Positions 5,326 through 63,449 of a stretch of 64,000 nucleotides of DNA are shown here, piece by piece. The notes beneath the pieces are model-generated. The model was not told the origin of the DNA and searched no databases. It saw nothing but the letters and a program-made list of their open reading frames with translations. The DNA is from Candidatus Zymogenaceae bacterium (GTDB taxonomy: Bacteria; Desulfobacterota; Zymogenia; Zymogenales; Zymogenaceae). The position numbers were made by a program, and so were the translations under genes. The stretch's first letter is position 1. Each line of letters opens with the position of its first letter. The stretch lies in NCBI GenBank assembly GCA_016931225.1, contig JAFGFE010000020.1, positions 1-64,000 on the forward strand, in the 5' to 3' direction.

Positions 5326-6852
5326 TCATCGATACGACTCTTTCAGGACCTTCTTGAGAATTTTCCCCCCCTGATTTCTGGGAAAGTCATCGACGAAGAA
5401 GATCTTCTTCGGTATTTTGTATGAGGCGATCATCCCGGCCAGGCGCTTTACCAGTTCTTCTTCAGTGAGAACGGCCCCCCGCTCCAACATCACAAAGGCC
5501 GCAACCACCTCGCCCCTCCGGGTATCCGGGATCCCCACCGCCGCCGCCTCGGCGACCTCCGGCTGGGCCTGGATGGCCCGCTCCACCTCCATCGGGTAGA
5601 TATTCTCCCCGGAGCTGATGATCATCTCCACCTTGCGGCCCACCAGAAAGATATAGCCGTCCTCATCCCGGTACCCCATGTCCCCGGTGTGAAACCAGCC
5701 TTCGGTGAAGGCCTGCTCTGTCGCCTCCGGCTTCTCCCAGTATCCGGAGAAGAGGTTCGGGCCGCGGATGATCACTTCGCCGGTGTCGCCGGGGGATACG
5801 TCCCTTTTGTCGTCGTCGACGATGCGCAGCCCCGTGTGAAAATCCTCCTTGCCGACGGATCCCGCCTTCCGGATCGAATCGGCGAGCGGCACGGCGGTGA
5901 TCTGGCAGGCCTCGGTCATGCCGTATCCCTGTGCGAAGGAGACCCCCTTTTCGTTCTGATATTTTTTAATCAGCGGCACCGGCATGGGCGCCCCGCCGGA
6001 GAAAAAATAGTGCACATGCGAAAAATCCGCCTCCGGCCACTCGGCGGCCTCGGTCATCATCTGGTACATCACCGGCACAGCGAACATGTAGTTGATCTTC
6101 TCATGCATAATGAGCTTAATCATCTCCGAGGCGTTGAAAAAGTGCCTGAGCACCAAGGATCCCCCGGCATATACCACCGGCGTCGTCGAGGCCGCCAGGG
6201 AGCCGATGTGAAACAGGGGCGTCGAGACCAGGGACTTGAAGGTATGGTTCAGGCCGTAATTGAGAAGGTTGTGGATGGCGTCGAACGTGATCGCCCGGTG
6301 GGAGAGGACGGCCCCCTTGGGGTCCCCGGTGGTGCCGGATGTATACATGATCAAAAGGGGGTCGTACTCGATCACGTCACCCACCCCAGGCGGCTCGTGG
6401 ATGGACGCCCCGGCCGTCAGATCGGATACGGATCGATCGTCCAGGATCTCCTCGCCCCCGTGCTTGATCCACGCCGCGATCTCCCTGCGGATCGATTTCA
6501 GGGACTCCACCTTCTCGTAGAAATCCGAGGAATAGAAAACCACCCGGGGTCGTGAGTTATGGAGGATATAGGAAAGCTCCGGTACCGCCAGGCGGAAATT
6601 GACCGTCACGATGATCGCCCCGATCTTGCCGCAGGCAAACAGTATCTCCAGAAATTCCGACGAGTTTAAAAGCAGCGTCGCCACCCGGTCGCCCTTTTTC
6701 ACGCCCATGCCGAGAAGCGCGTCGGCCATGCGGTTGACCCGCTCGTTGAACTGACGGTTGGTAAATGCGCGATCGCCCCCTTCCTCCTCCTGCAGGAAGG
6801 GGCCGTCGGGATTTCTCTCGGCCCGTTTTATGATCCATTCACCGACATTCAT
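5326..6852 (-). CDS. AMP-forming acyl-CoA ligase, paralogue 1
   Basis: A 508-residue member of the ANL (acyl-CoA synthetase) superfamily, which adenylates a carboxylic acid and transfers it to CoA or another thiol. Seen in order: P-loop motif YTSGTTGDPKG near residue 172, GYGMTEA (A5), HTGDMGYRDEDGY (A7), VGRKVEMIISSGENIYP (A8) and the C-terminal catalytic Lys in QGGKILKK (A10). All key residues are present. It is closely similar along its whole length to the gene just upstream (6880-8406), 27 bases away, so the pair arose by tandem duplication. Last gene of a four-gene operon with two ketosynthase-like genes. Substrate unknown; medium/long-chain or aromatic acids are typical for this clade. 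Confidence 0.93.
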   Translation of the reverse strand: MNVGEWIIKRAERNPDGPFLQEEEGGDRAFTNRQFNERVNRMADALLGMGVKKGDRVATLLLNSSEFLEILFACGKIGAIIVTVNFRLAVPELSYILHNSRPRVVFYSSDFYEKVESLKSIRREIAAWIKHGGEEILDDRSVSDLTAGASIHEPPGVGDVIEYDPLLIMYTSGTTGDPKGAVLSHRAITFDAIHNLLNYGLNHTFKSLVSTPLFHIGSLAASTTPVVYAGGSLVLRHFFNASEMIKLIMHEKINYMFAVPVMYQMMTEAAEWPEADFSHVHYFFSGGAPMPVPLIKKYQNEKGVSFAQGYGMTEACQITAVPLADSIRKAGSVGKEDFHTGLRIVDDDKRDVSPGDTGEVIIRGPNLFSGYWEKPEATEQAFTEGWFHTGDMGYRDEDGYIFLVGRKVEMIISSGENIYPMEVERAIQAQPEVAEAAAVGIPDTRRGEVVAAFVMLERGAVLTEEELVKRLAGMIASYKIPKKIFFVDDFPRNQGGKILKKVLKESYR

Positions 6853-6879
6853 GATACAATACGTCTCTCTTTTATGATT

Positions 6880-8406
6880 CTATTGGAATGATTCCTTCAA
6901 CTCCCGCCTCAATATCTTCCCCGAGCTGTTTCGGGGGAAATCATCGACGAAAATCACCTTCTTTGGTATTTTGAAATAGGCGATCCGATCCTGGATGGAG
7001 TCGATCAGCTCGTCCTCGGTCAGCTTCTCGCCCGCCTTCAACATCACAAAGGCCGCCACCACCTCGCCCCGCTTTTCGTCCGGCATCCCCACCGCCGCCG
7101 CCTCCTTCACCTGGGGGATCGACTGGATGACCCGCTCCACCTCGGCGGGATAGATATTCTCCCCGGAGCTGATGATCATCTCCACCTTGCGCCCGAGGAT
7201 GTAGAGGAATCCCTCCTCGTCCCTCCGGCCCATGTCGCCGGTGCGAAACCACTCGCCGACAAAGGCCGCCTTTGTCTCGGCGGGTTTGTTCCAATAGCCG
7301 GGGAACACGTTCGGACCCCGCACCAATATCTCCCCCGATCCACCGGGGGGCACGTCTTGATCGTTTTCATCGACGATCCTGACAAACACGTGAAACTCCT
7401 CGACCCCCACGGAGCCCGCCTTTCTGATGGAGTCGGTAAGGGGGAGCGACGATACCCGCCCGGTCTCGGTCAGGCCGTACCCCTGGGCGAAGGAGACGCC
7501 CTTCTCCTCCTGGTATTTCCTGATGAAGGGCACCGGCATGGGCGCCCCGCCGGCGATGAAATAACGCACGTGGGAAAAGTCCGCCCCCTCCCACTCCGCG
7601 GCGTCGGACATCATCTGGTACATCACCGGCACCGCAAACATATAGTTGATCTTCTCCGAATCGATGAGCTTGATGATCTCCGACGCGTTGAAGAAACGCT
7701 TGAGCACAAGAGACCCGCCGGCATAGATGACCGGGATCGCCGCCGCCGCCAGAGCCCCTATGTGAAACAGGGGTGCCGTCACCAGCGACACGAAGGTCGA
7801 ATCGACCCCGTATCCCAAAAGGTTGTGGATGGCCATGAAGGTGAGATTTCGGTGGGTGATCATCACCCCCTTCGGATCGCCGGTGGTGCCGGATGTGTAG
7901 ATGATGAGAATCGGGTCGGTCTCCGTTACTTCCACAGACGGCGTCGGCTCGGATGCGTCCTGATTCGAAACCGCGTCGGCGAGGGATGTGTCCCGATCGC
8001 CGCCGTTCTGACCGTGCACCAGCCACGCATCACAGTGTTTGCCCCCCTCTCGTATCTCGTCTATCTTCTCCGAAAAATCGGCGGAATAGATCATTACCCG
8101 GGGGGAGGCGTCATCTATCATGTACGACAGCTCCGGCATCGCCAGGCGGAAGTTCATCGGGACGAGGATGGCCCCCAGCTTGGCGCAGGCGAAGAGCACC
8201 TCCAGAAACTCCGATGAGTTGAGCATGATCGTCCCGACCCGGTCGCCCGAAGAAACTCCACGGCCCGCCAACATGTGGGCCGTCCGGTTGACCCGCTCGT
8301 TGAAGGCGGCGTTGTTGTATCTTTTATCCTCACGCTCGGCTTCTCTGAGGAAGGGACGATTCGGGAAGGCGAACGCCCGCTTGTATACCCATTGTCCGAT
8401 ATTCAT
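6880..8406 (-). CDS. AMP-forming acyl-CoA ligase, paralogue 2
   Basis: A 508-residue ANL-superfamily ligase with YTSGTTGDPKG, GYGLTETGR, RTGDMGRRDEEGF, VGRK-equivalent LGRKVEMIISSGENIYP and the A10 Lys in SSGKILRREL. The start at 8406 (MNIGQWVYKRAF) is chosen because it aligns with MNVGEWIIKRAE of the paralogue; an upstream in-frame ATG at 8436 would add ten residues. The two ligases differ mostly in the first half, including the substrate-pocket region, so they may take different acids. It follows the chain-length-factor-like gene by 53 bases and precedes paralogue 1 by 27. Confidence 0.93.
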   Translation of the reverse strand: MNIGQWVYKRAFAFPNRPFLREAEREDKRYNNAAFNERVNRTAHMLAGRGVSSGDRVGTIMLNSSEFLEVLFACAKLGAILVPMNFRLAMPELSYMIDDASPRVMIYSADFSEKIDEIREGGKHCDAWLVHGQNGGDRDTSLADAVSNQDASEPTPSVEVTETDPILIIYTSGTTGDPKGVMITHRNLTFMAIHNLLGYGVDSTFVSLVTAPLFHIGALAAAAIPVIYAGGSLVLKRFFNASEIIKLIDSEKINYMFAVPVMYQMMSDAAEWEGADFSHVRYFIAGGAPMPVPFIRKYQEEKGVSFAQGYGLTETGRVSSLPLTDSIRKAGSVGVEEFHVFVRIVDENDQDVPPGGSGEILVRGPNVFPGYWNKPAETKAAFVGEWFRTGDMGRRDEEGFLYILGRKVEMIISSGENIYPAEVERVIQSIPQVKEAAAVGMPDEKRGEVVAAFVMLKAGEKLTEDELIDSIQDRIAYFKIPKKVIFVDDFPRNSSGKILRRELKESFQ

Positions 8407-8459
8407 GGTGAAGCAATCATTCCTTTCGTTCTGCATCGTCAGGTGGGATTGAAGGTGTG

Positions 8460-10917: not shown

Positions 10918-10966
10918 GATACGGCGTCCGCCTGTATGTTGAATATTTTACAGTGTATTGTTTGGT

Positions 10967-10995
10967 ATTGTATCCAAGGGGACCTGTCTTTTCAA
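10967..10995 (-). promoter_or_regulatory. Sigma70-like promoter for the ketosynthase operon
   Basis: Minus strand: TTGAAA, 17-base spacer, TACAAT, about 50 bases upstream of the ketosynthase ATG at 10917. Both boxes are one base from consensus and the spacing is optimal. Confidence 0.6.
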
Positions 10996-11226
10996 CCGAA
11001 AAAGTGAGACCTTCGATATGAGTGTTGTCACTACGGTTTTCTCTTTCGAATCGAGTACCTCGTTATGCTTCGTCATACGTTTTCCCACTAGAAAAACCGT
11101 CAAATAAATTTATATATAAACAAATATAATGTTTATTATAATAAAATATTTTACACTTTCTATCAACATGCTAAATATTACTTGATTTCAGCCGGAACCA
11201 TGATATATTTGATAAAAGGAAAAACT
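10996..11226. other. AT-rich divergent intergenic region
   Basis: Gap between the divergent ketosynthase and SieB-like genes. From about 11100 to 11180 it is almost entirely A and T (runs such as aaatttatatataaac), very unlike the surrounding DNA. Several possible -10 boxes for the plus-strand gene lie here but none has a clear -35 partner. The composition suggests acquired DNA or a bound nucleoid-protein target. Confidence 0.6.
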
Positions 11227-11796
11227 ATGAAAAAAATCTGCAATGTGCTCGTATCCATCTTTAAAAAAACCTCCGCCTTTGTTATCGATCAATTAAAAGA
11301 CCCGAAGATCGCACTTTTTCTTTTTATAAGCTCGGCTCTCTTGTTATTCCTGCCACAATCAATTCTCACACATCTGGAAATAGACGCTTTCATTGAAGGG
11401 AAAAGAAGGCTGATTGGTCTTGTGTTTTTTTATTCCGTCAAGTGTTTTCTGGCCATCCTTGTCTTCTGGGTCCTGGTGCGGATTAAAGACAAAATAAAGG
11501 CCAAACGCCTCGCACAAAACGGAAGACCGGCTTTGCGTGATCTCACATCAGAAGAAAAAACATTCCTTGCGGGATTTTTCGTTCTGGAATCAAAAACACA
11601 GCATATCGACGTTCGAGATATTTCGCTTGATGGACTTATTTGTAACAATATTCTCTTTCTGGCCTCGAATATCAGCCTGGCCGAATCAAGGATTAACTAT
11701 CATATGCACTCCTGGGTGTGGAAGGAGTTGAAGAGATATCCGGAGTTGTTGGAACCGGAATTGTCCGACCTCGCAAATACCATGCAGGGGGCTTAG
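11227..11796 (+). CDS. Membrane protein resembling the superinfection exclusion B (SieB) family
   Basis: A 189-residue protein. The start at 11227 (MKKICNVLV) has AAAGGA eight bases upstream; the frame is open to 11182. Two membrane segments are seen at about residues 28-48 (IALFLFISSALLLFLPQS) and 64-85 (IGLVFFYSVKCFLAILVFWV), then a cytoplasmic domain with DLTSEEKTFLAGFF, a His-Asp-rich middle and the C-terminal WVWKELKRYPELL. This layout matches what I know of SieB-like proteins: two N-terminal helices and a small domain beginning L-T-x-x-E-K. SieB of P22/lambda aborts superinfecting phage, but many chromosomal family members are untested. The gene is lower in G+C than its neighbours. Confidence 0.6.
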   Translation: MKKICNVLVSIFKKTSAFVIDQLKDPKIALFLFISSALLLFLPQSILTHLEIDAFIEGKRRLIGLVFFYSVKCFLAILVFWVLVRIKDKIKAKRLAQNGRPALRDLTSEEKTFLAGFFVLESKTQHIDVRDISLDGLICNNILFLASNISLAESRINYHMHSWVWKELKRYPELLEPELSDLANTMQGA

Positions 11797-11903
11797 ATTA
11801 TTTCTCACATAAGAAACGAACATATATGAATGGATGGATACACCCGGGGTGATCGCCTCATGTAATATCCTTTCAGTGTGCCCTCTGGTTGGTTACCCTA
11901 TCG

Positions 11904-11960
11904 TCTCATTGAAGTGCGTTGAATGAGATTATAACTGATTTCACAAGGGAATTCTCCCTT
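11904..11960. repeat. Two small hairpins in the gap after the SieB-like gene
   Basis: TCTCATT-gaagtgcgttg-AATGAGA at 11904-11928 and AAGGGA-attc-TCCCTT at 11945-11960, the latter followed by a mixed T-rich stretch to 11982. They may end the SieB-like transcript. Nothing else is seen in 11797-11983. Confidence 0.4.
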
Positions 11961-11983
11961 TATTACGGCGCTTTTTTATTTCC

Positions 11984-12012
11984 TTGACATGCATAAAATC
12001 CTAATGTAATAT
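11984..12012 (+). promoter_or_regulatory. Strong sigma70 promoter for the RRM gene
   Basis: TTGACA at 11984-11989, a 17-base spacer, TAATAT at 12007-12012. The -35 box is perfect and the -10 box differs at one position. Transcription would start near 12019, leaving an unusually long leader of about 200 bases before the ATG at 12217. Confidence 0.8.
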
Positions 12013-12018
12013 TATTAC

Positions 12019-12216
12019 AGTATCAGGACACCGTGTCCTGAATTTGTTGTGCTGCCGTAGAGAGAGTTGAGACGTCTCCATCCGGGCGTCAGACAATTTC
12101 TTCAGCAGCTTTTTTGTTTCTCGAGTTTAATGATGTGTATGAATAAGAGGTATCGCTGTTTTCCTTCTTTCACCTCCGATAGCGTCCGTTATTAAAAAGA
12201 GAAAAAGGAGTCAAGA
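12019..12216 (+). ncRNA. Long structured leader of the RRM gene, possible small RNA or attenuator
   Basis: The untranslated leader starts with an 8-bp perfect hairpin TCAGGACA-ccg-TGTCCTGA (12023-12041), then a GCTGC (12051-12055) that can pair with GCAGC (12105-12109) just before six T residues (12110-12115). A 10-bp palindrome gagacgtctc lies at 12069-12078 in between. This could be a roughly 95-nucleotide RNA ending at the T-run, or a leader that terminates conditionally, or a cold-shock type leader. No known riboswitch class was recognised. The rest of the leader up to the AAAGGAG ribosome-binding site has no clear structure. Confidence 0.45.
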
Positions 12217-12477
12217 ATGCAAGGGAAAAAGCTTTTTGTTGGAAACCTCAGTTACTCGGTAACGTCGGAAGATCTTTCTAATCTCTTTTCAGAACATGGA
12301 GAGGTCGTGGAGGCCAAGGTCATCGAGGGCAAGGGATTCGGATTCGTTGAGATGTCGTCCCAGGCCGAAGCCGAGCAGGCGAAGGACGCGCTGCACGGTA
12401 AGGATTTCTCCGGACGCTCTCTCAATGTCGATGAAGCCAAGCCTCCCCGGAACAGGGATAGAGGCGGCTATCGATAG
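12217..12477 (+). CDS. RRM-domain RNA-binding protein
   Basis: An 86-residue single RNA recognition motif. RNP2 is LFVGNL at residues 6-11 and RNP1 is KGFGFVEM near residue 40; the short tail is NRDRGGYR, like the glycine/arginine tails of bacterial and cyanobacterial Rbp proteins. Compared with the standard RRM the loop before RNP1 is short. It binds single-stranded RNA in the cytoplasm; in several bacteria such genes respond to cold or act as RNA chaperones. The ribosome-binding site AAAAAGGAG lies seven to eight bases before the ATG. Monocistronic, with its own promoter and terminator. Confidence 0.93.
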   Translation: MQGKKLFVGNLSYSVTSEDLSNLFSEHGEVVEAKVIEGKGFGFVEMSSQAEAEQAKDALHGKDFSGRSLNVDEAKPPRNRDRGGYR

Positions 12478-12505
12478 TATCACACCCGATACGAAAACCA
12501 ACGAA

Positions 12506-12537
12506 GGAAGGGAAGGCACTGTCTTCCCTTCCTTTTT
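12506..12537 (+). terminator. Intrinsic terminator of the RRM gene
   Basis: GGAAGGGAAG-gcactgt-CTTCCCTTCC followed by five T residues. A 10-bp perfect stem. It ends exactly where the convergent TPR gene ends. Confidence 0.85.
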
Positions 12538-12959
12538 CATTCGACCCGCCCGAGTCCTTCCAGCTTTATACACGCCCGCTCCAGGCCAAGCTCACACGCC
12601 CGCCTGAAACCGGCCCTCGCACGATCCCTTTCATCCATGAGAACATAGGTAAAGCCGAGGCAGTAATACGCATCGGCATCCCCCGGGTCCATGCGAACAA
12701 CCTCCTTGAAATCAGAAACGGCCTCTCGAAATCGTGACAGATAGATATACGCGTTCCCCCTGTCGAAATACGCCTTTTTGTACTGTGGGTCTCTCTCGAC
12801 GGCCCTCGTGTAGCAGTAAACGGCCTGTTCAAATTCAGATGATTTCATGTGCTCAAAACCCCTGGTGTACCAGGTCACCCCGCTTTTGGATCGTGCCTTC
12901 ATTGATGCGGCAAAGAGGTCGATGATGTATTCCGTCACCATCCCATCACATCCGATCAT
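12537..12959 (-). CDS. TPR-repeat protein (short)
   Basis: A 140-residue protein with about two and a half tetratricopeptide repeats: WYTRGFEHMKSSEFEQAVYCY, AYFDRGNAYIYLSRFREAV and AYYCLGFTYVLMDERDRA. It ends in an ACELGLERAC segment. Start chosen at the ATG at 12959, preceded by AGAGGTGAC, rather than 13097, because the upstream extension is basic low-complexity sequence. TPRs mediate protein-protein contacts. It resembles the TPR gene at 14161-14916 in repeat pattern and in its A-C-x-x-G-x-E-x-A-C end, so the two are probably paralogues flanking the AT-rich gene. Partner unknown. Confidence 0.8.
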   Translation of the reverse strand: MIGCDGMVTEYIIDLFAASMKARSKSGVTWYTRGFEHMKSSEFEQAVYCYTRAVERDPQYKKAYFDRGNAYIYLSRFREAVSDFKEVVRMDPGDADAYYCLGFTYVLMDERDRARAGFRRACELGLERACIKLEGLGRVE

Positions 12960-13124
12960 GTCACCTCTGTTCTCCTGAATGCGCATCTTCCGTGCCCCGA
13001 TTGCACACGGCCCGTTTCGCCGACCGCCCGCTCGACCGGCCGAAAAGCCCGCCGTCTTTCCTTTTAAACCTGTTTTTAGCATACTCGCTCCCGTCACAAC
13101 AAAACGTGATATCGCTCATGTTTT

Positions 13125-13141
13125 TTTAAGTTTTTCTTAAA
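13125..13141. repeat. Small AT-rich inverted repeat in a 325-base gap
   Basis: TTTAAG-ttttt-CTTAAA. It lies in the gap 12960-13284 upstream of the TPR gene. The rest of that gap holds no convincing gene; its left part could code for an N-terminal extension of the TPR protein, and its right part is AT-rich like the next gene. Confidence 0.35.
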
Positions 13142-13284
13142 CTAAAAGATGTTTCATTACCTACGGCGATAGATGCGTAGACTGCTGATAAAGACCGTTG
13201 GATTGGTGGGAAATATGTTAAAGAAAACCGATAAATAGGTAGCATCGAGGAGACACACAGTAGGCAGTTGCACGATTTTACAGC

Positions 13285-14016
13285 TTACAATTTTTCTTCC
13301 AATCTATTTATCAAGTATTTAACTATAGCATCTGCAAACTCGAATACAGTTATAACATTTCCTTTATCAACAAATGGTTTTGCATAAGATTGAATAATTG
13401 GATTGTCGTCAGCATACATATCCTTTTCTTCATATTGTTGTGTTTCAAAATTCAGAATCTTTGCTTTTTCCACTACTGCTCCTTTTGTAATACTTCTCAA
13501 ATTATAATGTATATATGGATTGCGAATGTTTTTCCTAAAAGATTTAAGTTCTTTGGCAGGCTTTGATCCCAATAGTCCAACTTTTTTGGCTCTTCCAATG
13601 GATTCTCCAAAATCCATTTTTTCAAATTCTTCCCATTTTTCAGGATCATATTCTCCATATCCTCCAACTTCTTTTGTATAAGTTGTACGCTTCAGTGTAA
13701 ATTCTATTAAGATTGCAGAAAGGGTAATTGCAGCTCCATTAAGACTAAATAGAATACATTCTTGAATTTCCCTATAGAGTGACCGTATTGATTGTGAAAA
13801 AAATTCATTTGGTACGGGAGGCAATTCCTTTTCCAATTTAATTGCAGACTCTAATCGTTCTTTAAAAAGTTCAGGTAATGTTTTATTGTGTGCAATCTCT
13901 ATGGGAACTCCTTTTTCCCTGAGTTTTTCGATACCATTTGGATTTACAATAATAGTATCCGATCCTTGTGACAATCTTGTCATTAAATCAGCAAGACTAT
14001 TCTCTTTTTTTGTCAT
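13285..14016 (-). CDS. HEPN-like protein of foreign composition
   Basis: A 243-residue protein rich in Lys, Ile, Glu and Asn, encoded by DNA that is by eye only about one third G+C, against mostly over half around it. Residues 72-110 form long helices and residues 161-171 read RKNIRNPYIHY, which contains R165-x4-H170, the R-x4-6-H signature of HEPN ribonuclease-like domains, here as the common R-N-x-x-x-H-Y form. HEPN proteins act as toxins or RNases in defence and toxin-antitoxin systems, but some are inactive. No partner nucleotidyltransferase or antitoxin gene is next to it. The start at 14016 has AGGA seven bases upstream. Assignment rests on one motif and helix pattern. Confidence 0.6.
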   Translation of the reverse strand: MTKKENSLADLMTRLSQGSDTIIVNPNGIEKLREKGVPIEIAHNKTLPELFKERLESAIKLEKELPPVPNEFFSQSIRSLYREIQECILFSLNGAAITLSAILIEFTLKRTTYTKEVGGYGEYDPEKWEEFEKMDFGESIGRAKKVGLLGSKPAKELKSFRKNIRNPYIHYNLRSITKGAVVEKAKILNFETQQYEEKDMYADDNPIIQSYAKPFVDKGNVITVFEFADAIVKYLINRLEEKL

Positions 14017-14108
14017 GGCTTGTTCCTGATAACACTACAAAGCAATATGATTTCTTTTTAAAAAATAGCCCCTCCCTAATTACATGGCTAACATTCTCAA
14101 CCACCTTC

Positions 14109-14162
14109 TCACCCGATATCCAAAAGCGACAGCCTTCCCGCAAAGCGGGTCATCAGCACTTC
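14109..14162 (-). repeat. Truncated copy of the recG 3' end
   Basis: 54 bases that match 15085-15138, the last 18 codons including the stop of recG, at 50 of 54 positions with no gaps, in the same orientation. The copy ends within two bases of the stop of the TPR gene at 14161. It carries no start and is not expressed as a gene. It looks like one side of a target-site duplication or a leftover of tandem duplication. Confidence 0.85.
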
Positions 14163-14916
14163 ACAGTTCTCCCAGGATGGTGCACGCCTCTTCCTCGCCT
14201 TTTTCGCAAGCCGCCGCAAGGTCTACCTTCGCCTTTTCCACATCCCCCATGTCCCGATACATCAAACCCCGATTGAAATACGCCTCACTGTTATCCGGGT
14301 CCAGCTCAATGGCTTTCCCGAAATCCTCGACGGCCTCGTTATACCGGCCCATATTCTTATAGGCGATCCCCCGAGCGGTGTACGCATCGACACGTTCTCT
14401 ATCCAGCTTGATAACCATATCGAAGTCATCGATCGCCTCTTCATAGCGCTCCAACTCCATGTAAGCGGATCCCCGGTTGTAGTATGCTTCGATATTTCCC
14501 GGATTCTCCTCGATCGCCGATGTGAAAAAGTTGACGGCCTCTTCATAGGCTCCCCCCTCGGCGAAGGAACGCCCTATCATGTTATTATGGGATGACAGCT
14601 TGATATTCCACTCGCTGGGACCTTCAGTGGTTGAGTCGTTTTCGGAGCCTTCGTTTTGAGACATTGGCGCCTTGTTATCGATTTCGCGGCCCGGAGAAAC
14701 AGAGATGATTTCCCGGACATGGTACGCCGCCTTCTTGAAAAACTCTTCAACTCTTTCGAATGATTTGCCCCCAAAAAAATACTCATTTACTATTCTCGTT
14801 ACCTTTGTATCGGAGCATTCACACACGACACCCAGAACCAGACAGAGGATTATAAAAAGCGCGACGATATCCCTCGGATCCCGCAGGTTGATTTGCATGT
14901 TCAGGATATTTCTCAT
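14161..14916 (-). CDS. Membrane-anchored TPR-repeat protein
   Basis: A 251-residue protein with an N-terminal hydrophobic segment (IVALFIILCLVLGVVCEC, about residues 16-33) that is a signal anchor or lipoprotein-like signal (Cys after VVCEC), a polar linker to about residue 110, then four TPR repeats (NNMIGRSFAEGGAYEEAV, AYYNRGSAYMELERYEEAI, AYTARGIAYKNMGRYNEAV, AYFNRGLMYRDMGDVEKA). The C-terminus ACEKGEEEACTILGEL is shared in pattern with the TPR gene at 12537. Probably periplasmic-facing scaffold. The start is uncertain: ATG at 14916 is used, TTG at 14931 and ATG at 14898 are alternatives. It lies between the recG-end copy and recG itself. Confidence 0.82.
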   Translation of the reverse strand: MRNILNMQINLRDPRDIVALFIILCLVLGVVCECSDTKVTRIVNEYFFGGKSFERVEEFFKKAAYHVREIISVSPGREIDNKAPMSQNEGSENDSTTEGPSEWNIKLSSHNNMIGRSFAEGGAYEEAVNFFTSAIEENPGNIEAYYNRGSAYMELERYEEAIDDFDMVIKLDRERVDAYTARGIAYKNMGRYNEAVEDFGKAIELDPDNSEAYFNRGLMYRDMGDVEKAKVDLAAACEKGEEEACTILGEL

Positions 14917-15084
14917 GTATGCAGACGTCAATCCACTCTATGAATTTCTTAGAGTATTCCCATGTGCAGGATAATTACATGTCTGTCGATAGAGCCGGGG
15001 AGAAATGGTATCCCTGCGTTTCCCGCCCCTCGTTTCCGTAATATGGAGCCATACACAAAATCGGCGGGCCTTCGGAGACACCCT

Positions 15085-15138
15085 TCACCCGATATCCAGA
15101 AGCGACAGCCTGCCCGCAAAGCGGGTCATCAAGACTTC
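15085..15138 (-). repeat. Parental copy of the duplicated recG 3' end
   Basis: Last 54 bases of recG, from codon 18 before the end to the TGA. It is repeated at 14109-14162 with four mismatches. The repeat unit begins exactly at the recG stop codon. Confidence 0.85.
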
Positions 15139-17616
15139 CCGGGTGATTTTGTGGGCGGGGTCGGTGAGGGTGGGGTCTTTTTTCAGCAGCGCTTCCGCCT
15201 CCCGGCGGGCGAGCAATAATGTCTCTATATCCCGTATCAAATGCGCCGCCCGGAACGCCGGGAGGCCGGATTGCCGGGTGCCCAGGAACTCCCCCGGCCC
15301 CCGGAGCTTCAAATCCTCCTCGGCGATGACGAAGCCGTCGGTGGTCCGGACCATCACCTCGAGCCTGCGCCTCCCCTCATCCGTCACGTTTCCGCGTGAT
15401 ATCAGCACACAGTAGGCCTGCTCCGCCCCCCGCCCCACCCGGCCCCTCAGCTGGTGGAGCTGGGCCAGGCCGAAGCGCTGGGCCTCCTCGATGACCATCA
15501 CCGTGGCGTTGGCCACGTCCACCCCCACCTCCACCACGGTGGTGGAGACCAGGATCGATATCTCCCCCGCCTCAAAGGCCCCCATCACCCGCTCCTTCTC
15601 GTCCCCCTTCATCCGGCCGGTCAGAAGCCCCACCCGGTATTCGGGAAACGCCGCCGAGAGCTCCTCGGCGGTGCGGGTGGCGTTTTTCAAATCCAGCTTC
15701 TCCGACTCCTCCACCAGGGGGCAGACCACATAGGCCTGTCGCCCGTGGGAAAGCTGGTGGTGCAAGAGATCATGGAGGCGTTTCGTCTCGTCGGCGCCGA
15801 GGAGCAGGGTCTTTATAGGTTTCCTCCCCGGGGGCTGCTCGTCGATGACGCTCACATCCAGGTCGCCGTAGACCGTCAGCGCCAGGGTCCGGGGGATGGG
15901 CGTGGCGGTCATGACGAGGACTTCCGTTAAATGCCCCTTCTCCTTCAGGGCGCCCCGCTGGAGCACGCCGAAGCGGTGCTGCTCATCCACCACCGCAAAC
16001 CCCAGATCCGAAAACTCCACCCCCTCCTGTATCAGGGCGTGGGTGCCAAAGACGATCTGTATCGTGCCCGCGGCAAGCCCAGAAAGGATCTCCTCCCGCT
16101 GGGTTCCCGCCACCGACGCCGTCAGAAGCGCCGACGTCACACCGATGTCGGAAAGGGGCTTTTCGAGATTCCGGTAATGCTGCTCCGCCAAAATCTCCGT
16201 GGGGGCCATCAGCGCCGCCTGGGCGCCGTCCTCCACGGCCGCCAGCGCCAGGGCCGCCGCCACCACGGTCTTGCCGGAGCCCACGTCCCCCTGGATGAGC
16301 CGGTGGGTGGGCCGGGGGGAGGTGAGGTCGGCAAGGGTCTCCGCCAGCACCCGCTTTTGCGCGCCGGTGAGGGGAAAGGAGAGCCCCCCCAGGAACTTTT
16401 CCATGAGCGCGCCCTTCCCGGTAAAGGCCCTGCCGGGAGACGTGATAATGTGCTTCTTTTTCACCAAGAGCCCCAGCTCCATGATGAAAAATTCATCCAT
16501 GGCGACGCTCTTTACCGGGAGCCAGTTTCCGTCGTCGATGTTCGGCTCGCCGTGCGTGCGGTCCGGATCGTGGATGTGGGAGACGGCCTCGGAGAGGGAG
16601 AGAAGCCCCAGGCGCGACCTGACCTCCTCGGGCACCCCGTCCGGGAGGTATCCGGCGAACCCCCCGGAGGCGTTCTTGACGATGCCGACCATCTGCATCA
16701 GGCGCATCCGCTCAGGCAACGGATAGCGGGGGATGAACTCCCCCCGGTAGTCCGCCTCCCCGCCCTCCCAAGTCTCCACGTCCGGGTGGACCATGTTCCA
16801 TCGGTTTCCGAACTCCGTCGGCGTGCCCCGGATAAGCAGCTTCATCCCCTTTGAAAAGCGGTTTTTCATGTAGGGGAGGTTGAACCAGACGAGGCTCAGA
16901 ACGCCCTTGCCGTCGGTGACGATCACCTCGGTGATGCGCCTGCTCCGCCGCCCCCTGCCTCCGGTGAACCGCTCCCCCACCGTCACCACGTCGGCCACCA
17001 GCGCCGCCTGTTCCCTCAGCGTCAGCTCCCGGATCGATTTGAGGCGGGTCATATCGATGTAGTAATTGGGAAACTGGTAGAGCAGATCCTCCACGGTGTG
17101 CACGTCCCGCTTGGCGAATACCTGCGCCCTTTTCGGCCCCACGCCCTTGACGAAGGTCGCCGGCGTATCCAGCTTTTCCCGGGAAAGGGCGTAGGAGAGA
17201 GCGTCCGGCGGCCTCCCGGAGAGGGGGGGAGGTGTGGGTGCGGCGGGGGCTTTTGGTTTTTTCCCCGGCTTTTTCCCGGTCCGGGGCGGTTTCTCCTTTT
17301 TTTCCTCCTCGTCGATGACGGCCTCAAGGATCGTCCGGATCGCCCCCAGGCGCCGTTTTTTCTCTTCGAGAGACGCCCCGTCGAACCCGGCGCTCAATCC
17401 TTCCAGCTCTTCAATGACGGCGGCGTGTGAATCTTCTCCCACCGATGACCGCATCACCCCAATGAGGGCGGCGGCCGTCGCCTCGAATCCCTTCAGGTTG
17501 GCGAGGTTGGCGAAGTCGTCCTTCATGGCGAAGGTCACCGGCTTCATCAATCGATCTGCGACATCACTCGTCGAGACGATGTCCCCGTTTTTCCCGTGTG
17601 TGCGCCCGGAATCCAT
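15085..17616 (-). CDS. recG: ATP-dependent DNA helicase RecG
   Basis: An 843-residue superfamily-2 helicase that reverses stalled replication forks and migrates branched DNA. In order: an N-terminal extension of about 150 residues with a Lys/Pro-rich linker (KKEKPPRTGKKPGKKPK), as in other Deltaproteobacteria-type RecGs; the wedge OB domain with FPNYYIDM; Walker A GDVGSGKT near residue 440; the DExH box VVDEQHRFGV near 540; TATPIPRTLAL (motif III); and motifs V-VI in LVSTTVVEVGVDV and QLRGRVGRG. The C-terminal DIG is followed by the stop. The length exceeds E. coli RecG (693) because of the extension. Transcribed alone, divergent from the ABC gene. Confidence 0.97.
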   Translation of the reverse strand: MDSGRTHGKNGDIVSTSDVADRLMKPVTFAMKDDFANLANLKGFEATAAALIGVMRSSVGEDSHAAVIEELEGLSAGFDGASLEEKKRRLGAIRTILEAVIDEEEKKEKPPRTGKKPGKKPKAPAAPTPPPLSGRPPDALSYALSREKLDTPATFVKGVGPKRAQVFAKRDVHTVEDLLYQFPNYYIDMTRLKSIRELTLREQAALVADVVTVGERFTGGRGRRSRRITEVIVTDGKGVLSLVWFNLPYMKNRFSKGMKLLIRGTPTEFGNRWNMVHPDVETWEGGEADYRGEFIPRYPLPERMRLMQMVGIVKNASGGFAGYLPDGVPEEVRSRLGLLSLSEAVSHIHDPDRTHGEPNIDDGNWLPVKSVAMDEFFIMELGLLVKKKHIITSPGRAFTGKGALMEKFLGGLSFPLTGAQKRVLAETLADLTSPRPTHRLIQGDVGSGKTVVAAALALAAVEDGAQAALMAPTEILAEQHYRNLEKPLSDIGVTSALLTASVAGTQREEILSGLAAGTIQIVFGTHALIQEGVEFSDLGFAVVDEQHRFGVLQRGALKEKGHLTEVLVMTATPIPRTLALTVYGDLDVSVIDEQPPGRKPIKTLLLGADETKRLHDLLHHQLSHGRQAYVVCPLVEESEKLDLKNATRTAEELSAAFPEYRVGLLTGRMKGDEKERVMGAFEAGEISILVSTTVVEVGVDVANATVMVIEEAQRFGLAQLHQLRGRVGRGAEQAYCVLISRGNVTDEGRRRLEVMVRTTDGFVIAEEDLKLRGPGEFLGTRQSGLPAFRAAHLIRDIETLLLARREAEALLKKDPTLTDPAHKITREVLMTRFAGRLSLLDIG

Positions 17617-46814: not shown

Positions 46815-47384
46815 CTACAGAACCTCCAGGTGAATCGTATTGTTCGTGTAAATGCAAATATCCGCGGCGATCAAAAGCGCCTCCCGGGCGATCTCCTCCG
46901 CGGTCAGCTTCGAGTGCCGCACCAGCGCCCGGGCCGCCGCGGCGGCGTATCCGCCGCCGGAGCCGATGGCCAGTATCTCGTCGTCAGGCTCAAGGACATC
47001 CCCGCTGCCGGAGATGACCAAAGACGCCTCCTCGTCGGCGACCAGGAGCAGCGCCTCAAGGCGCCTGAGGTATTTGTCCATCCGCCAGTCCTTGGTCAGC
47101 TCCACCGCCGAGCGAACGAGGTTGCCGTTGTATTGCTCCAGCTTTCCCTCGAAGCGTTCAAAGAGGGTAAAAGCGTCGGCGGTGGCCCCGGCGAATCCCG
47201 CCAGTATCTTTCCGTGATAGAGTCGGCGTACCTTCTTGGCCGTCCCCTTGACCATCTCCTCTCCCATCGTCACCTGGCCGTCCCCGGCCATGGCGACCAT
47301 CCCGTCTTTGCGAACGGTAAGCACGGTGGTACTGCGGACTTTCGGGGTTGTCAAGGACGCCGCTCGTTCATGTGGTATCGTCAT
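46815..47384 (-). CDS. hslV: ATP-dependent protease peptidase subunit HslV
   Basis: A 189-residue proteasome-like Thr protease. The core from [12 protein letters not shown] (Thr19 aligns with the N-terminal nucleophile Thr of E. coli HslV) through [36 protein letters not shown] to [14 protein letters not shown] is intact. The ATG at 47384 leaves 18 residues in front of Thr19, more than the single Met of E. coli, so a propeptide must be cleaved or a later start such as the TTG codon at Leu11 is used. It overlaps xerC by 17 bases. Confidence 0.96.
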
Positions 47385-48414
47385 ATGCTCTCCTTTTCGA
47401 CCGGGGATGGGCCTTGTCGTATACTTCCATCAGCCGATCGAGGCTTACATGGGTATATTTCTGCGTGGTGGCTATCGATTCGTGTCCCAGAAGCTCCTGG
47501 ATGTCCCTCAGGTCCGCCCCCATTTCCATCAGATGCGTGGCGAACGCATGGCGCAGGCTGTGGGGAGACACATCCAGGGCGAGGGACCCGATGAGAATGT
47601 ATTTCTTTATGATGCGATTGATGCTTCGGGACGTCAGCCTCCTGCCCCGGAGATTGAGAAACAGCGCCTCCCCATCCCGGCGCGCGCCCGAATCCAAAGG
47701 CGACGTAACATCCAGGACCTTCAGGTACGCGCTCAAGGCCTTCAGGGCCGGATCGCCCACCGGCACGATGCGCTCCTTCGATCCCTTCCCCACCACCCGC
47801 ACCGTCGATTCATCCCACCGGACATCCTCACGATTGAGGGCCACCAGCTCTCCCACCCGGATGCCTGTGGAGTAGAGGATCTCCAGGATCGCACGATCCC
47901 TCAGCCCCGATTCCGTCCCCGCCTCCGGCAGAGAGAGCAGGGCGAAGACGTCATCCACGGTCAGGTATTCTATCCGGCGGCCCGTCTGTCGGGGATACGA
48001 CACCAGGGATGCGGGATTCGCCGATATGTATCCATTTTTTCTTAAAAACCGGAAAAAGGTTCGAAAGACCGACAGGGCCCGGGACGCCGAGCTCTTCTCC
48101 CGGGTCCCGAGGAGCACTCCCAGGTAACTTCGAATATCCCGGTGGGTAATTCCGGTCCAATCCACCACCTCGAGGGACTCATCCTCCCGGACCAGATACG
48201 CCTCGAAGGCCCTGAGGTCATACTCGTACCCCCGGAGCGTGTGTGGGGACGCACCGCGCTCCCTTTCCAGGTAACGGATAAAGGCTGTGACGAGATCGGC
48301 CGTGCCGCCCTCCTTTCCACCCACGCCCCCGAACGGACCCGTGAGAATGGGAACGCCTGCGCAACGGTCCGCATCCGACAAGCACGTTTTCGTTCGAATG
48401 CGGACCGATGACAT
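47368..48414 (-). CDS. xerC: Tyrosine recombinase XerC
   Basis: A 348-residue site-specific recombinase, core-binding domain at about residues 40-125 and catalytic domain to the end. The active residues are in STGIRVGEL (Arg), GKGSKER (Lys), [13 protein letters not shown] (His, Arg), [15 protein letters not shown] (His/Trp position His, Tyr nucleophile). It resolves chromosome dimers at dif with XerD. The first 35-40 residues are longer than in known XerC, so the true start is probably inward, but no alternative with a clear ribosome-binding site was found. xerC-hslV-hslU is a known operon order. Confidence 0.94.
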
Positions 48415-62385: not shown

Positions 62386-62880
62386 ATGCTGACCATCCGA
62401 CCGGCGCGTCCGGACGACGCCGAAACCATCATCGAACTAATCAGGGAACTCGCCGAATATGTAAAGGATACGGACACAATCGATATCACGACTGAAGATA
62501 TCATCCGATACGGCTTCGAAGATAATCCGATTTTTCATTGCCTGATATGCCTAAAAAACGACGTTCCGACGGGATTCGCACTCTACTTCTACACCTTCTC
62601 CCCGTTAAAGGGAAAACCGGTGATATTTCTGGAGTGTTTCTACATCTGTCCCGAGTACCGCCGACAGGGCATCGGTAGGGCACTGATGACCCGGATGGCC
62701 GAAACCGCACTACGGGACGGATGCGTCTGTTTCGAGTGGATCGTCCCGGACTGGAACACGCCGGCCATTGATTTTTACCGGTCCCTAGGGGGATATCACC
62801 TCCCCGGAATGGTGCCCTACCGCATGGATTCCGGGGATATAACGGCTCTCGTAAAAAGGAGCGAATCCGATAAAAAGTAG
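62386..62880 (+). CDS. GNAT acetyltransferase, copy 1
   Basis: A 164-residue N-acetyltransferase of the diamine/thialysine N-acetyltransferase type. Opening MLTIRPARPDDAETIIEL, the CoA site YRRQGIGRALMTRMAE near residue 88 (R/Q-x-x-G-x-G/A) and the C-terminal DFYRSLGGYHLPG. FEWIVPDWNTPAIDFY is the SSAT-like segment. AGGAG lies six to seven bases before the ATG. Very similar to the next gene. Confidence 0.93.
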   Translation: MLTIRPARPDDAETIIELIRELAEYVKDTDTIDITTEDIIRYGFEDNPIFHCLICLKNDVPTGFALYFYTFSPLKGKPVIFLECFYICPEYRRQGIGRALMTRMAETALRDGCVCFEWIVPDWNTPAIDFYRSLGGYHLPGMVPYRMDSGDITALVKRSESDKK

Positions 62881-62954
62881 TCGAGCAACGGCTCCATTAT
62901 GTTTGCGGGAATTCGATACATCCGTCATACCTATTCCATAACGGGAGTAACACC

Positions 62955-63449
62955 ATGCTGACCATCCGACCGGCGCGTCCGGACGACGCTGAAACCATCA
63001 TCGAGCTGATCAGGGGGCTCGCCGAATACGAGAAGGAACCAGACGCAGTCAGGACTTCCACGGAAGATATCATCCGATACGGCTTCGGAGAGAAGCCTGT
63101 ATTTCACTGCCTGATGTGCCTGTGGAACGACGTCCCGGCGGGATTCGCTCTCTATTTTTATACCTACTCCACATGGGAGGGGAAACCGGGGCTATTTCTG
63201 GAGGACATTTTCATTCGTCCCGAGTATCGACGACACGGCATCGGCAAGGCGATAATGATCCGACTGGCGGAAATCGCCGTGCGGGAGGGATGCGCCCGGT
63301 TTGAGTGGAACGTCCTGGACTGGAATACGCCGGCCATCAGGTTCTACGAGTCCCTGGGAGGATATCACCTCTCCGAATGGCTCCCCTACCGCATGAACCC
63401 CGAGGATGTGAAAGCCCTTGCAGAAAAGGCCGGTCCCGACAGTAAGTAA
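62955..63449 (+). CDS. GNAT acetyltransferase, copy 2
   Basis: A 164-residue paralogue of the preceding gene: same length, same opening, CoA site YRRHGIGKAIMIRLAE near residue 88 and FEWNVLDWNTPAIRFY. The first 35 bases of the two genes are identical and most changes are in the middle. The catalytic Tyr near residue 135 (RFYESLG) is kept. GGGAG precedes the ATG by about nine bases. Recent tandem duplication; polyamine, thialysine or amino-sugar substrates are possible. Confidence 0.93.
   Translation: MLTIRPARPDDAETIIELIRGLAEYEKEPDAVRTSTEDIIRYGFGEKPVFHCLMCLWNDVPAGFALYFYTYSTWEGKPGLFLEDIFIRPEYRRHGIGKAIMIRLAEIAVREGCARFEWNVLDWNTPAIRFYESLGGYHLSEWLPYRMNPEDVKALAEKAGPDSK

Follow-up and report, generated by a model that had tools for sequence, protein, structure and literature searches.

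A second copy of the recG 3′ end behind a TPR gene in a Zymogenaceae genome, possibly the displaced end of an older recG

The last 18 codons of recG, stop codon included, occur twice in the 64,000-nucleotide stretch of DNA analyzed here (the window), once at the end of the gene itself (right copy) and once on the far side of a TPR gene (left copy). This second recG end is most likely the scar of a past insertion more than the sign of a working mobile element. With a probability of roughly 45%, we propose that the left copy is the displaced 3′ end of the resident recG and that it marks a single event in which DNA of a related strain was inserted. In the ancestor, recG would have been followed by the HEPN-like gene that now lies beyond the left copy. 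An incoming fragment from a related strain would have carried recG with the TPR gene downstream of it; one end of this fragment would have recombined with the resident recG through homology, and its other end, just behind the TPR stop codon, would have joined illegitimately to the resident gene at a point 18 codons short of its end. In this way the recipient would have acquired the TPR gene together with a complete recG end of the donor type, and its own former recG end, with the neighbor behind it, would have been shifted downstream. We infer the direction of this event, its donor, the identity of the old neighbor, and the mechanism from the arrangement of the region, the features of which are collected in Table 1.

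Table 1. Features of the region between recG and the FabF-like gene, in window coordinates
Feature	Position	Strand	Remarks
Variable recG-fabF interval	10918..15084	.	4,167 bp here; 208 bp in G003; 3,977 bp in G002
HEPN-like gene (name tentative)	13285..14016	-	243 aa; RNPYIH motif; GC 0.32, GC3 0.19
Left copy of 54-bp unit, putative displaced recG 3′ end	14109..14162	-	Same 17 residues plus stop as right copy; 4 synonymous differences
TPR gene	14161..14931	-	256 aa from TTG; TPR_1, E = 3e-33; hydrophobic N terminus plus TPR repeats
Gap from recG stop to TPR gene	14932..15084	.	153 bp
Right copy of 54-bp unit, recG 3′ end	15085..15138	-	Functional gene end, EVLMTRFAGRLSLLDIG*
recG, intact	15085..17616	-	843 aa; Pfam RecG_wedge, DEAD, Helicase_C, RecG_dom3_C

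The first-pass annotation of this DNA had reported a 54-bp copy of the recG end, in the same orientation and starting at the recG stop, and its coordinates and identity proved exact. The two copies match on the same strand, without gaps, at 50 of 54 positions, and the unit begins at the recG stop codon (15085-15087). Translated in the frame of recG, each copy gives EVLMTRFAGRLSLLDIG and then a stop codon. A gapped alignment of the two adds only ∼7 weakly matching bases past the recG stop, and such a drop in similarity at this point is expected if two strains have different neighbors there. When the window was searched with a 20-base probe from the repeat, 2 sites were found, compared with 0 expected from 100 shuffles. 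A 47-base pattern allowing up to 3 mismatches matched these two copies only in the whole 3,726,185-base assembly, so a repeat dispersed through the genome, which had been raised as a competing possibility, did not materialize, and this pattern search of the 3.73-Mb assembly returned no third copy of the unit. When the DNA from fabF to the left copy was examined for a further copy, the best local score was 14, compared with 48 for the true pair, and this was dismissed as a chance match. Neither was a second pair of this kind (length 35-250 bp, identity of at least 82%, separation of 150 to 10,000 bases) present in 499,273 bases of the same genome, made up of the window and 26 stretches that cover TPR paralogues, matches to integrases, and what remains of contig C20. 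In the left copy we detected no structured RNA family, tRNA, or terminator, and its predicted fold was not better than that of shuffled sequences. The left copy is probably without function today.

The four differences between the copies are all synonymous in the recG frame. Among single changes in the unit, 42 of 162 are synonymous, and the probability that four random changes to one copy would all be of this kind is 0.004-0.008. Synonymous-only differences are what two diverged recG alleles predict, and because all four differences fall into this class, the left copy was probably once a working, coding recG end from a slightly diverged allele, a conclusion that the pattern favors and does not prove. 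The argument weakens when the comparison is confined to the last 15 codons of the unit, a trimming that drops the two adjacent differences near its 5′ end, as only 2 differences are then left and the corresponding probability for random changes becomes 0.07-0.09. The chance that the extension of the match past these two adjacent differences arose by accident is ∼0.016. At codon 2 of the unit, the left copy has GTG, as do G002 and G003, and the present recG has GTC; these two genomes and G001 are members of the same family, and their recG orthologues are 59-66% identical. The polarity proposed for the event depends on this codon and on a marginal likeness between the sequence past the left copy and that past recG in G003 (p = 0.033). 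This was one of six comparisons of downstream sequence with relatives, of which the other five gave p values of 0.05 to 1.0, and the set is not convincing after six tests.

The segment between the copies (14163-15084, 922 bp) had been described as holding a TPR gene and nothing else, and this was borne out, as that gene is the sole plausible one there. On the minus strand, the order is recG, the 153-bp gap, the TPR gene, the left copy, 92 bp, and the HEPN-like gene. There are 81 TPR matches in this genome, and because the paralogues finish near the same residue, the TPR gene between the copies seems complete at its 3′ end. The left copy starts within the TPR stop codon, with which it shares 2 bases, as would an old gene end that had been cut at its 5′ side by a new neighbor. 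A terminator was called after four of nine TPR paralogues, and one more was recognized by eye; terminator scans found no intrinsic terminator 3′ of the TPR gene next to recG, and its absence gives weak support to a join directly behind the TPR stop codon. A gene cassette, too, would account for a junction that coincides with a stop codon, and to that extent this position counts against a displaced recG end. The attC core at the end of a cassette gene is GTTRRRY, and since inspection of the 54 bp by eye did not reveal this core, an integron cassette was rejected. A displaced recG end explains why there are two coding ends that have diverged, why no recombinase was found in the interval, why similarity drops past the recG stop, and why the junction follows the TPR stop codon. 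As a separate observation, a second TPR gene (12537-13097, minus strand) has a strong terminator-like hairpin directly 3′ of its stop codon.

The interval between recG and fabF was compared in the three family members named above. In G003, recG is close to a FabF-like gene; in G002, which belongs to the same genus as G003, the space between recG and fabF is filled by other genes (by eye, a response regulator, a V4R-like protein, and an SDR); and in G001, there was no FabF match within the fetched stretch. Because the interval varies in this way among relatives, we regard it as a place where genes come and go. The first-pass annotation recommended looking for an empty site; recG and fabF are indeed near each other in G003, but because the whole 4.2 kb is absent there, this genome does not show a site that lacks just the 922-bp segment. 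Within the interval of the window there is also an ORF whose product has a SieB superinfection-exclusion domain, a phage-related gene (11182-11796; PF14163, E = 1.3e-19; GC 0.42).

Base composition changes across this region. Both recG and the FabF-like gene have a GC content of 0.65, the TPR gene has one of 0.50, and the HEPN-like gene has the lowest (0.32); the step is sharp and falls at the left copy, which the AT-rich block adjoins. The presence of an AT-rich gene just beyond the left copy had been noted from the outset, and its position and composition stood up to analysis; the gene product also carries an RNPYIH motif. The name of the gene stays tentative, because the protein has no Pfam, PADLOC, or NCBIfam match and its PHROG match is weak (phrog_1305, E = 6.6e-5). 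The structure model of the protein is of low confidence (mean pLDDT 59), a fold search with this model returned nothing significant (the sacsin HEPN domain ranked 39th, with E = 4), and a comparison of its sequence with solved structures gave weak, unrelated matches only. A homologue was found in 1 of 38 relatives, the distant genome G019 of the same phylum, where the protein is 46-47% identical, the motif is kept as R-N-P-Y-x-H, and the flanking genes are unrelated. The protein was absent from the viral contigs, phages, and plasmids searched, and no plasmid DNA resembling positions 13100-15138 was found. This HEPN-like gene is a possible earlier neighbor of recG.

The arrangement could also be read as a pair of attachment sites, as the first-pass annotation had suggested. 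A small circle that bore the 3′ end of a recG gene would have been inserted by an external integrase into the same part of the resident recG, so that attL and attR came to bracket the TPR gene; the integrase gene would have been lost or would never have been on the element. We consider this explanation rather unlikely. Direct repeats do flank the segment (50 of 54 positions identical), the repeat finishes at the recG stop so that recG is restored intact, and both the synonymous differences and the variable interval count in favor of this explanation. In these respects the locus is like islands made by integrases in the 3′ ends of protein genes, where the gene end is duplicated and the gene restored; according to one account of integrases, islands often rebuild the gene that they enter (PMC12884075), and H47 is described as a 13-kb island that lacks a recombinase of its own (PMC5426353). 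Unlike integrase-made islands, the recG locus shows neither an integrase nor repeated use of the site. The recG-fabF interval contains no match to the integrase family PF00589, in agreement with the initial remark that none is seen. The sole PF00589 match in the window is XerC-like and lies ∼30 kb away (47368-48414; TIGR02224, 312.9 bits, below the cut-off of 335). This gene, which is adjoined by genes that we take to be hslV and hslU, is probably the housekeeping XerC.

Further searches for attachment sites and for reuse of the recG end gave the same picture. An inverted-repeat core with a spacer of 5-10 bases was looked for and not found. None of 80 genome regions from the phylum (937 kb downstream of recG in all; the top 80 of 202 genomes with a recG match, some of the regions ending at contig ends) contained a duplicated recG end, the best score elsewhere being 22 compared with 46 for the pair described here. 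None was present in 50 other recG loci either, where the best score was 27 (L028, with a reverse-complement control of 25) and the pair described here again scored 46; in this set L010-L030 had ∼1.5 kb of downstream sequence only, two family genomes were entered twice, and nine of the 80 genomes above were shared. A degenerate search of viral sequences for a carrier of the site returned one contig, in which the match fell inside an unrelated protein containing a similar peptide and was attributed to chance, so this search gave no relevant viral contig. Other elements carrying the same 54 bp were thus found neither in the assembly nor at the 80 plus 50 recG loci nor among viral contigs, and the unit is present in one only of the genomes examined. 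Because no reuse was seen in these loci, in the viral collection, or in the 499 kb of this genome, the unit represents, as far as can be seen, a single event and not a used site. The idea of attachment sites gained no positive support from the searches for an integrase, a third copy, or reuse. A literature search found no paper on integration at recG and none naming the family Zymogenaceae, and recG is missing from the main text of the integrase paper cited above (PMC12884075). A more specific case would be a one-gene cassette, a 976-bp circle that carries a recG end, moves with no recombinase of its own, and targets the 3′ end of recG, which it would repair on entry; this is highly improbable.

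We consider it unlikely that the left copy arose by local duplication, in which a template switch or an unequal exchange would have copied the last 54 bp of recG behind the TPR gene with no foreign DNA involved. This would be the simplest event, it needs no recombinase, it accounts for the same orientation and short distance of the copies, and a sole such pair in 499 kb is what a one-off accident would leave. A non-coding copy should, however, gain non-synonymous changes. Under a null model fairer than that of four random changes, in which the left copy drifted freely and recG changed synonymously only, the probability that a given difference is synonymous is ∼0.41 (derived from the 42 of 162 changes above), and that for all four is ∼0.03, or ∼0.17 for the two differences in the trimmed unit. 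Local duplication also requires a chance coincidence with both stop codons. Of the two origins left open by the first-pass annotation, insertion agrees with the data in that it would have duplicated the end of recG, and a local duplication would make four synonymous differences out of four unlikely. The genome is a 46-contig assembly, but an artefact of assembling a metagenome bin is barely credible: the copies are distinct from each other at four positions, both are located within a contig of 206,863 bases, and no other pair like them was present in the 499 kb.

A displaced recG end resembles the displaced effector 3′ ends with orphan immunity-gene arrays of V. cholerae T6SS loci, and orphan Rhs 3′ regions as well. 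In the T6SS arrays, which are also free of recombinases, an old effector 3′ end and its neighbor are proposed to have been moved downstream of new ones, perhaps by homology-facilitated illegitimate recombination (PMC5361080). Those arrays involve a variable toxin gene and recur across strains, whereas the locus analyzed here involves a conserved repair gene and a single event in one genome. Homology-facilitated illegitimate recombination, as described, combines one homologous and one illegitimate end, as we propose for the recG fragment (PMC3240628). It was described from experiments, whereas here it is deduced from static sequence. For conjugation in E. coli, the same report gives a frequency of 3 × 10^-10 per recipient (PMC3240628), and this rarity in experiments counts against a displaced recG end.

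Direct repeats around a segment that lacks a recombinase are found in the H47 island and in pUY-FRT, as they are here (PMC5426353). In E. coli, pUY-FRT carries 46-bp repeats 886 bp apart, dimensions close to the 54 and 922 bp at recG, and the intervening DNA is reported to be lost without RecA (PMC5426353). Excision of H47 and pUY-FRT was detected by PCR, whereas the recG segment is not known to be mobile; H47 also differs from it in its size of 13 kb. Based on these two cases, the recG repeat pair could still recombine, and the segment could occasionally be lost, which would not make it a mobile element.

If the left copy is indeed a displaced recG end, then a conserved repair gene can acquire the same scar as toxin loci, an old 3′ end followed by an old neighbor, and this kind of scar looks like a pair of attachment sites; if it is not, the case matters little. 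The synonymy of the differences, taken together with a junction at a gene end, provides a cheap test for genome scans that can separate local duplication from two diverged gene ends.

The remaining short direct-repeat families in the window (30-300 nt, 71-90% alike) are taken, from their position and spacing, for pieces of duplicated genes or of protein-coding sequence. Two similar tandem genes at 5326-8436 contain repeats that are 71-74% alike over up to 300 nt at a spacing of 1,554, and this tandem pair is also found near fabF in G002. Two further similar tandem ORFs, 79% alike over 300 nt, are located at 62386-63449, and the fetched stretch of G002 contains one homologue of these ORFs.
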